The translations under genes and the position numbers were made by a program. Under the pieces are notes generated by a model. That model saw nothing but the letters and a program-made list of their open reading frames with translations. It searched no databases and was not told the DNA's origin. Shown piece by piece: positions 4,583-39,017 of a stretch of 64,000 bases of DNA (positions are counted from its first letter, which is position 1; each line of letters opens with the position of its first letter). Origin of the DNA: Bacteroidales bacterium (GTDB lineage: Bacteria; Bacteroidota; Bacteroidia; Bacteroidales; Tenuifilaceae); NCBI GenBank assembly GCA_013376985.1, contig JACABB010000023.1, forward strand, positions 1-64,000. Reading direction: 5' to 3'.

Positions 4583-4642
4583 ATGAAACACCCATGTTGT
4601 AGACTAAAACAAAAGGCGATGAACAAAATATGGGTGTTCCAT
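4583..4642 (+). ncRNA. Conserved leader hairpin, copy A (upstream of rlmN)
   Basis: This 60-nt imperfect palindrome pairs AACACCCATGTT with AATATGGGTGTT (12 bp, one G-U pair) across a 24-28 nt loop. It has the same length and flanking consensus (ATGAAA ... TTCnAT) as copies upstream of purE and the cyd operon. The stem pairs CACC:GGTG here are TGTT:AACA in the cyd copy and CATC:GATG in the purE copy, so pairing is kept while sequence changes. The flanks AATTTATCAAC and AATTTATAAAC are similar, which leaves a mobile-element origin open. Confidence 0.5.
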
Positions 4643-4717
4643 GATTGTAATTTATAAACGGTTACTATGACATATTCCTCTTGCTATAAATCAATCGTAT
4701 AATATATATTTATTCTT

Positions 4718-5752
4718 ATGAAACCCCCTCTCCTTGGGAAAACTCTTCCTGAAATAACAGAAATTGTTCAAACTCTCAGTGGACGAGCGGATCAAGCAAT
4801 TGCGATTTCAAAATGGTTATACAAAAAAAATGAATTTAACTTCGATTTAATTGAGTCAATTTCCAATACGCTAAGGAAATCTCTTGACTCCTCTTATTCT
4901 ATTGGGAAATACCCACCGTCTAAGGTAACAGAATCAAAAGATAAAACTCGAAAATATCTATTTAGCAATGATACAGAGCAGCAATTCGAATCTGTATTTA
5001 TGCCAAGTGCTAAGAGAAATACACTCTGTATTTCATCGCAATCGGGCTGTAGAATGGGATGTAAGTTTTGCTTAACTGGCAAGATTGGATTTAAAGGAAA
5101 TCTCTCAGTGCTAGATATTGTTAATCAATTCTATAGTATACCAGATTATAAAGATGTGAATAGATTGGTAATAATGGGAATGGGAGAGCCTTTTGATAAT
5201 TTTTTTGAAGTTAAAAAAGCTGTTGAAATTTTCACATCACAGTGGGGATTGGCATTTGGAGCATCAAATATTACCATTTCAACGGTCGGATTACTCGATC
5301 CCCTAAAACAATTCTTGGAAAACCCTTTCTGCAACCTTGCAATCAGCCTAAACAATCCAATTAGCGCTGAACGAAAAGAACTGATGCCTATTGAAAACAC
5401 AAATCCTATCTCTGAGGTCATAAATCTTATTAAACAAAGCCCACTAAAAAAACCGTTAAGATTATCATTCGAATATGTTGCTTTAGGAGGAGTAAATTTA
5501 TACCAGCAACATGCCGTGGGCATTATAGATCAGCTAAAAGGGGTAAACTGCCACCTAAACATTATTTGCTGGAATAGCCATAACGGTTCGCCATACTATA
5601 CTCCTAGTGAATTAGAACTAAACTCATTTATCAGCTGTTTAGATAAAAATGGCATATTAGCATCTGTTCGTCAATCTCGAGGGCAAGATATTGGAGCTGC
5701 CTGTGGGCAGATGGCCGGAAACCTATTAATAAATAACGTCTGTTCGATGTAA
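4718..5752 (+). CDS. rlmN: 23S rRNA (adenine-C2)-methyltransferase RlmN-like, radical SAM
   Basis: A radical-SAM enzyme that methylates C2 of A2503 in 23S rRNA (family activity; some relatives also modify tRNA). The 344-residue protein has an N-terminal accessory domain, a conserved Glu in ESVFMPS (E91), and the CxxxCxxC cluster motif C111-C115-C118 in GCRMGCKFC. It also has the GMGEPFDN motif and the C-terminal catalytic Cys (C329 in AACGQMAG). The last codons and the TAA stop lie inside a small mobile element (5742-5975), so the extreme C-terminus (CSM) is element-derived. Upstream are a -7 box and a 60-nt hairpin. Sequence around the C-terminal half is somewhat divergent from typical RlmN. 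Confidence 0.9.
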   Translation: MKPPLLGKTLPEITEIVQTLSGRADQAIAISKWLYKKNEFNFDLIESISNTLRKSLDSSYSIGKYPPSKVTESKDKTRKYLFSNDTEQQFESVFMPSAKRNTLCISSQSGCRMGCKFCLTGKIGFKGNLSVLDIVNQFYSIPDYKDVNRLVIMGMGEPFDNFFEVKKAVEIFTSQWGLAFGASNITISTVGLLDPLKQFLENPFCNLAISLNNPISAERKELMPIENTNPISEVINLIKQSPLKKPLRLSFEYVALGGVNLYQQHAVGIIDQLKGVNCHLNIICWNSHNGSPYYTPSELELNSFISCLDKNGILASVRQSRGQDIGAACGQMAGNLLINNVCSM

Positions 5753-27472: not shown

Positions 27473-27985
27473 CTAATTCACTTTATACTCAAACTTAACT
27501 TTAGATAATTCTTGATTTGCAGATATTACCTTTTTGGCAAGACTTTGCTTGAACTCAATCATTTGTTTTTGAACCTCGGGTTCGCCAGTTCCAATAATCT
27601 GGATAGCAAGAATACCCGCATTGCGAGCGCCATCCAGAGCTACGGTTGCTACTGGAATTCCTGCAGGCATCTGAAGAATGGAGAGGATTGAATCCCAACC
27701 ATCAATTGAATTTGACGATTTAACTGGCACTCCAATTACTGGAAGTGGAGTTAATGCAGCAATAACGCCTGGAAGATGAGCAGCTCCGCCAGCTCCGGCA
27801 ATTATCACCTTAATTCCACGGGTATGAGCATTGCGGGCAAAATCCAAAACCTGATCGGGTGTACGATGCGCCGATAGGGCATTCATCTCGAATGGAATCA
27901 TCATCTCGTTCAGTACCTTCGCAGCCTCTTCCATAATTGGTAGGTCCGATGCGCTGCCCATAATTATGCTTACTTTAGGATTCAT
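27473..27985 (-). CDS. purE: 5-(carboxyamino)imidazole ribonucleotide mutase PurE
   Basis: Converts N5-CAIR to CAIR in purine biosynthesis. The 170-residue protein carries SIIMGSASDLPIMEEAAKVL, the catalytic SAHRTPD loop (near 40-46), GAGGAAHLPGVIA and SILQMPAGIPVATVALDGARNAG, the full class I PurE signature. No purK is adjacent. Upstream in the leader, in sense orientation, lies a 61-nt hairpin also found before rlmN and cyd. Confidence 0.95.
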   Translation of the reverse strand: MNPKVSIIMGSASDLPIMEEAAKVLNEMMIPFEMNALSAHRTPDQVLDFARNAHTRGIKVIIAGAGGAAHLPGVIAALTPLPVIGVPVKSSNSIDGWDSILSILQMPAGIPVATVALDGARNAGILAIQIIGTGEPEVQKQMIEFKQSLAKKVISANQELSKVKFEYKVN

Positions 27986-28015
27986 CTGTCTATTTTTTGT
28001 TTTTAAAGGTTACAG

Positions 28016-28076
28016 ATGGAACATCTATAGATAGTCATTCTCGTGTGTGTTAAGACTACTATCATGGATGTTTCAT
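28016..28076 (-). ncRNA. Conserved leader hairpin, copy B (upstream of purE)
   Basis: Read on the minus strand, this 61-nt unit begins ATGAAACATCCATG and ends GATGTTCCAT. The stem pairs ACATC with GATGT and continues as GATAGT / ACTATC with a bulge. Length and end motifs match copies A (4583) and C (38646). It begins about 90 nt before the purE ATG. Confidence 0.5.
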
Positions 28077-38645: not shown

Positions 38646-38705
38646 ATGAAATGTTCATGTTGACAAAGAACACCAAGCACAATGATCAAAACATGAACAT
38701 TCTAT
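38646..38705 (+). ncRNA. Conserved leader hairpin, copy C (upstream of cyd operon)
   Basis: A 60-nt unit with a perfect 12-bp stem AATGTTCATGTT / AACATGAACATT (38650-38661 and 38690-38701) and a 28-nt loop. It matches copy A at 38 of 60 positions by eye, and all four bases that differ in the stem (TGTT for CACC) are matched by compensating changes (AACA for GGTG). No T run follows, so it is not a simple terminator. The rest of the spacer 38436-38798 shows nothing definite. Confidence 0.5.
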
Positions 38706-38798
38706 CTGAGCCTTGGTGATTAATATTATTCGAAGAAAAATGACAACTAATTATATATTAATTATTTATGAAATTTCATTCAGATAAATAATGGAAAG

Positions 38799-39017
38799 AT
38801 GCCGAACAATCCGATTAAATCTATAATTCAATTTTATTATGATGGTTTTAAAAGCATGACCATTGGTAAGACCCTTTGGACAATCATAATCATAAAACTC
38901 TTCATAATGTTTTTTATCCTCAAACTTTTCTTTTTTCCTGATTTGCTAAAAAAGAATTTTAAAAACGATTCCGAAAGAAGTCGACATGTGCTCGAACAAT
39001 TAACGAATAAAAAATAG
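38799..39017 (+). CDS. DUF4492 small membrane protein of the cyd operon
   Basis: A 72-residue protein with one membrane helix (about 23-48: LWTIIIIKLFIMFFILKLFFF) and the family's YYDGFKSMTIGKTLW segment. DUF4492 genes regularly precede cydA in Bacteroidota and some Campylobacterota, suggesting a role in assembly or stability of cytochrome bd. Here the gene is 9 nt upstream of cydA on the same strand. The reaction, if any, is unknown. Confidence 0.85.
   Translation: MPNNPIKSIIQFYYDGFKSMTIGKTLWTIIIIKLFIMFFILKLFFFPDLLKKNFKNDSERSRHVLEQLTNKK

Follow-up and report, generated by a model that had tools for sequence, protein, structure and literature searches.

Three related hairpins stand in the sense leaders of unrelated genes within the 64,000-nt stretch of Bacteroidales DNA analysed here (the window), and the question is whether they form a cis-regulatory RNA family, as proposed from the sequence alone, or belong to a folded mobile element, the alternative named at the same time. 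An exact re-check agrees with the positions given for the three units, 4583-4642 (copy A, + strand, 60 nt), 28016-28076 (copy B, - strand, 61 nt) and 38646-38705 (copy C, + strand, 60 nt). A recount likewise gives 38 of 60 identical positions between A and C. The stem quartets CACC:GGTG, CATC:GATG and TGTT:AACA and the G-U pair of copy A are all present, which confirms three related hairpins in sense leaders with paired changes that preserve the stem. Scanning the window for hairpins of the form ATGAAA...TTCnAT in which 6 or more of 8 stem bases pair returns these three copies and one chance-level site; 200 dinucleotide shuffles of the window contain a mean of 0.27 and a maximum of 2 such hairpins, and never three or more (0/200).

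The sequence-only reading closed each unit at the hairpin. The hairpin itself stands, but a conserved spacer continues from it up to the start codon, and the whole unit of 91 to 138 nt consists of the head ATGAAA, the hairpin, TTCYAT and the spacer, followed by the ATGAA of the gene. Copy A spans positions 4583 to 4717 (+ strand, 135 nt, long-spacer type), with the head at 4583-4588, the hairpin at 4583-4642, the guide TTCCAT (see below) at 4637-4642 and the spacer at 4643-4717. Its insertion target is the rlmN start codon, ATGAA at 4718-4722 (ORF 4718-5752, TIGR00048, RlmN). The words AATTTATCAAC and AATTTATAAAC that flank this copy had been taken for a possible target duplication and are none; the repeated word is ATGAA, found at the head and at the gene start. 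Copy B spans 27986 to 28076 (- strand, 91 nt, short-spacer type), with the head at 28076-28071, the hairpin at 28076-28016, the guide TTCCATCTG at 28021-28013 and the right end CAG at 27988-27986; its target is the purE start codon, ATGAA at 27981-27985 (- strand; ORF 27473-27985, TIGR01162, PurE). Copy C spans 38646 to 38783 (+ strand, 138 nt, long-spacer type) ahead of a 72-aa ORF and the cydA operon, with the hairpin at 38646-38705, the guide TTCTATCTG at 38700-38708 and the right end CAG at 38781-38783.

In the consensus, the 5' part runs from ATGAAA through a variable stem segment YRYY, CATG, a loop with the conserved core ACACA-GGAG-ATGA-TA, a second CATG and RRYR to TTCYAT, and the 3' part reads STGACC...AATCAAA...TTATAAACAS up to the gene's ATGAA. 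Spacers are either short (~28 to 31 nt) or long (~70 to 80 nt), and near-identical spacers sit among unrelated flanks. Tandem units are stacked head to tail, the ATGAAA head of one occupying the start-codon position of the other. The stem has 13 pairs with an invariant A.C mismatch. In 64 diverse copies, stem pairing is 98% and drops to at most 50% once the strands are slid, and 82 cells are changed on both sides, versus 29 in shuffles, in a set that is partly selected for covariation by the purine/pyrimidine classes fixed in the pattern scan of reference genomes, the choice of C-G versus T-A being unforced. This supports the proposed selection on structure. Such covariation is compatible with a function in RNA or in single-stranded DNA alike, and a regulatory effect after insertion is possible.

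The related genomes contain empty sites. The purE gene of the congener G002 displays a precise one, with ...TCTTAAAATCCTAAAAAAACATAAA joined directly to ATGAATCCTAAAGTAAGC, and the window has matching flanks with the 91-nt element between them; purE in the congeners G001, G003 and G004 likewise lacks the element. The cyd locus of G002 is also a precise empty site (...CCTTATTTTTGATAAT followed by ATAAATAACAG), where, in the window, the 138-nt element precedes ATAAATAATGG. Two further empty sites come from two genome pairs of Balneolales, at genes for one protein starting MKEVVVIDAARTPIGSF (thiolase-like by eye) and one starting MKFNTKTIHAGQQPEETTGA; these derive from diverged relatives, and losses are conceivable in principle. 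Copy A is common to the window's genome and G002; in G003 and G004, no copy was seen ahead of the best rlmN match. Orthologous regulon leaders would not show a pattern of this kind. Together with the 1 to 39 copies per genome within the genus and the stacked units, the empty sites bear out the folded mobile element: each hairpin belongs to a copy of a non-autonomous, ~90- to 140-nt mobile element, whose mobility, judged from these sequence comparisons, is near certain. In G002, the rlmN ortholog that carries copy A (L272; window 4718-5752) contains an in-frame TAG, and a second, more distant rlmN match is also present.

The element inserts mostly at start codons. Among 191 assessable non-tandem copies, the next ORF opens at [AG]TGA (ATGA or GTGA) in 150 and from another start in 10, and no ORF follows in 31; as the ORF test somewhat favours finding starts and the copies are related, these counts are given without a p-value. 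About 10 of the 31 copies without an ORF belong to a cassette-like repeat (CCCCAATTATTC...GAATAATTGGGG) of genus g7, where ATGAA does not serve as a start. The window itself has 11 ATGAA words at starts and 38 in noncoding DNA. Since the noncoding occurrences outnumber those at starts, the start-codon bias is strong and exceeds what the 5-nt target alone explains. The non-random orientation of the copies stems solely from the nature of the insertion site, since most ATGAA words used are start codons. Upstream of the head, the frequency of A is 0.57 at positions -13 to -11, 0.53 at -6 and 0.47 at -3, versus ~0.33, in a count that leaves out copies possibly following an older unit. In Flavobacterium johnsoniae, these upstream positions are reported to determine initiation (PMC6847099); this signature of Bacteroidota start sites indicates that the head stands at a former start codon. 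The copies thus show precise insertion at ATGA(A), usually at a gene start and in sense, with the start left intact and the element as its new upstream sequence. Copy C is an exception, with ATAAA instead of ATGAA on its right (38784-38788, + strand), which lies within the 5' leader, 15 nt ahead of the ATG at 38799, and is not itself a start codon; the identical word is found at the empty site of G002. A search for a gene family common to the targets, as a mover or a regulon, gave a largest cluster of four. A translational bypassing element, considered because of the ATGAAA at both ends, was rejected, as the ATG at the right end already serves as a start codon.

Full complementarity between the triplet that follows TTCYAT and the triplet ahead of the ORF start is seen in 97 of 160 copies, where 5000 shuffles give an expectation of 25.8 and a maximum of 42, and in 71 of the 83 copies with short spacers; the ORF starts used in this count were picked without reference to complementarity. 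The matching pairs include CTG/CAG, GTG/CAC, ATG/CAT, CCG/CGG and CCT/AGG, and several copies with a TTCCAC guide have GTGAA ends. This covariation of the post-hairpin triplet with the triplet before the start codon shows that the element has its own guide segment, which is complementary to the site of insertion. This guide consists of TTCYAT and the next three bases, and its complement is the junction, i.e., the three terminal bases and ATGAA. The guide TTCYATNNN at the hairpin foot faces NNNATGAA, and the pairing of NNN, combined with that of TTC-AT with ATGAA, makes an 8-bp duplex with one bulged base across the right junction. TTCYAT also pairs with the head. Mobility, start-codon insertion and the guide, taken as a joint claim, are highly probable.

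The right end of the element is variable in its sixth base and, in some copies, in the fourth and fifth (ATGAAT, ATGACA, ATGAGA), and the head is almost invariably ATGAAA, though the finder favoured such heads. The varying right end, the constant head and the position of the empty-site cyd word on the right favour a polarity in which the head would be the element's own and the target would lie at the right. No terminal inverted repeats, a feature of classical MITEs, are seen in the unit listing. ATGAA at both ends is readable as a target-site duplication, but the element itself encodes the complement of ATGAA.

At L217 and other loci of the genomes G023 and G016, near-identical copies of the element are embedded in a repeat (CCCCAATTATTC...GAATAATTGGGGTTAAC) at a spacing of 1.4 to 2.1 kb, between small genes that include HTH and RelE-like ORFs. 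These loci look like an integron-type cassette array with the element riding on the recombination site. Identity with an integron attC site was considered and set aside: the G023 copies look like insertions into the cassette-array repeat and not like the repeat itself.

A covariance model built from seven copies, used on the window's genome and its relatives, finds ~22 to 25 copies in the former (5.26 Mb); 22 of the 39 relatives also have copies, the four congeners 1, 39, 2 and 9. The pattern scan of reference genomes gives at least 117 stretches, and the taxa among the matches listed are Bacteroidales, Marinilabiliales, Balneolales, Sphingobacterium, Chitinophaga, Chryseobacterium, Sinomicrobium and a Chlorobiota MAG. 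The 64-copy model under strict filters matches in only 10 of 295 other genomes sampled from the phylum. Thus, the element is found patchily in Bacteroidota and neighbouring phyla. Rfam searches at gathering and loose thresholds give no credible match, and the element is not described in the literature searched. One copy lies before a small ORF on an IMG/VR viral contig (L340:7813-7874), and a Balneolales-type element is found on a contig of a “Candidatus Nealsonbacteria” MAG (L105, PWOE01000024), probably a misbinned contig.

The closest known parallel is provided by the IS200/IS605 elements and their gene-less derivatives, such as IS608 (PMC5934647). Both they and the present element have a subterminal hairpin, which here is imperfect and lies near an end, and a short guide at the hairpin foot that is complementary to the cleavage site and target. 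Both insert next to a short target of fixed sequence, and the element ends in that target word too, here ATGAA/TTCAT at both junctions and at empty sites; the IS200/IS605 elements lack inverted terminal repeats, as the present element appears to. However, IS608 has a hairpin at each end, whereas the present element has one hairpin, and its other end pairs with the same guide, which appears to serve both ends; its target is a 5-nt start-codon word, and neither a Y1 transposase nor a full-length parent has been found. In IS608, the guide 5' of the hairpin pairs with the cleavage site and the target, the left-flank target is retained and a circular junction is formed (PMC5934647), which suggests a comparable guide-directed mechanism here. 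In this mechanism, the hairpin and guide would act in single-stranded DNA. On the bottom strand, the element follows TTCAT, and the guide ATRGAA at the 5' foot of the hairpin would pair both with the TTTCAT of the 3' foot and with the flanking TTCAT target. The guide would thereby direct excision as a circle and then reinsertion 3' of TTCAT, with the enzyme supplied in trans. This single-strand step is the likeliest mechanism, though taken alone it has a little under an even chance of being right.

No Y1 transposase tracks the element: the bearing genomes G016 (18 model matches) and G225 (6 copies) have none. The independent copy number of G016 is lower, since some of its 18 matches lie inside the cassette repeat. 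No neighbouring Y1 gene with the element's own ends is seen, and no autonomous parent is found among 217 copies. Y1_Tnp was rejected as the mover, being missing from two bearing genomes, while the resident Y1 genes of the window's genome are flanked by other palindromes. One of these loci (L012, G000:C1:118265-118831) is a RAYT gene with its own flanking palindromes CCGCTAGCGCGGATTTGCAATCCG, and each of five further Y1 genes (L007-L011) is flanked by different ones.

The same genes bear on whether the element might be REP-like and moved by a resident REP-associated Y1 transposase (RAYT or TnpA-REP). Like REP sequences (PMC8266576), it is a short dispersed palindrome without a gene that would rely on a helper in trans, and RAYT and Y1 genes do exist in the window's genome. 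However, REPs are generally intergenic, whereas here insertion is at start codons, and the GTAG-like tetranucleotide and an adjoining RAYT gene are absent. Each Y1 or RAYT gene is adjoined by its own different palindromes, and RAYT presence does not track copy number; RAYT was rejected as the mover on these grounds, and a REP-like origin is highly improbable. Movement at the RNA level, with a reverse transcriptase copying a small RNA whose end is splinted to the mRNA start by the guide, would directly explain sense insertion at start codons. Yet the window's genome, which has a lineage-specific purE insertion, has zero RVT_1 matches, and RVT_1 does not track the element, so that a reverse transcriptase was likewise rejected as the mover and this route appears extremely improbable.

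The reading as a cis-regulatory RNA, i.e., a riboswitch-like or protein-binding leader family that pairs or releases the start codon and so controls a global regulon, would account for the sense leader position, the covarying stem and a second helix, which contains the AUG and forms in the folds of the single copies B and L126. It conflicts with the precise empty sites and the orthologous congener genes that lack the element, with the erratic copy number and tandem units, and with the copies inside cassette-array repeats, away from any gene start. The target genes are unrelated, neither conserved orthologous placement nor a coherent regulon is seen, an Rfam match is absent, and the covariation-supported structure is predicted likewise by a function in single-stranded DNA. 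A regulon as the origin of these hairpins is largely contradicted by these observations, and the RNA family as such is highly improbable. An effect of the mobile element on expression is a separate matter. After insertion, the mRNA would keep the old start as a short upstream ORF, which in 154 of 160 copies ends ahead of the main start (a raw count, without chance control), and a second hairpin, predicted in the mRNA folds of copy B and L126, would hold the new AUG, possibly altering translation. As initiation in this phylum is modulated by structure near the start codon (PMC6847099), an effect on the gene is plausible. The element might even have turned into a portable translation-control module that spreads as DNA and whose copies are kept for a useful expression change, given this leader layout with its own start-site context, a share of copies retained at start codons that far exceeds the ATGAA background, and a second helix maintained by covariation, GTG starts included. 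However, a DNA guide predicts that helix equally, and recent insertions, e.g., at purE, already display the same layout, which leaves this reading unlikely. Only tentatively, with some lean towards doubt, can the mobile-element reading be extended to a widespread class of guide-carrying mobile hairpins that target the start codon, relegate the native start to a short upstream ORF and supply the gene with a portable start site; the mover would be neither a tracked Y1 nor a reverse transcriptase.

Two further systems share some of these features. The NTGA target-adjacent motif of ISC/IsrB elements (PMC9581776) includes ATGA, but the present hairpin element has no long omega RNA or nuclease. The TAACTGA direct repeats of Beggiatoaceae, Cyanobacteria and some Bacteroidetes, for which a post-transcriptional role is suspected (PMC4679880), are similarly patchy and lie just upstream of the starts of unrelated genes, but they are heptamer tandem repeats without a hairpin, a guide or shown insertion sites. 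If the present reading is true, the niche of this mobile element is the gene start, where insertion leaves the protein unbroken and can rewire how housekeeping genes, purE, rlmN and cyd among them, are translated. Thanks to the guide, targeting is open to direct test and might be reprogrammed, and the search for the missing enzyme has a clearly defined object. A more general caution is that compensatory changes in a sense-strand leader can mark a DNA element and need not point to a riboregulator. Some copies carry inserts of their own: in the window's genome, the loops of L021, L032, L033 and L035 contain a second small palindromic insert of the GAGTTTACGAGCT..ACGAAGT type at two different positions, and L025 and L037 have other inserts between TTC and CAT at the hairpin foot.
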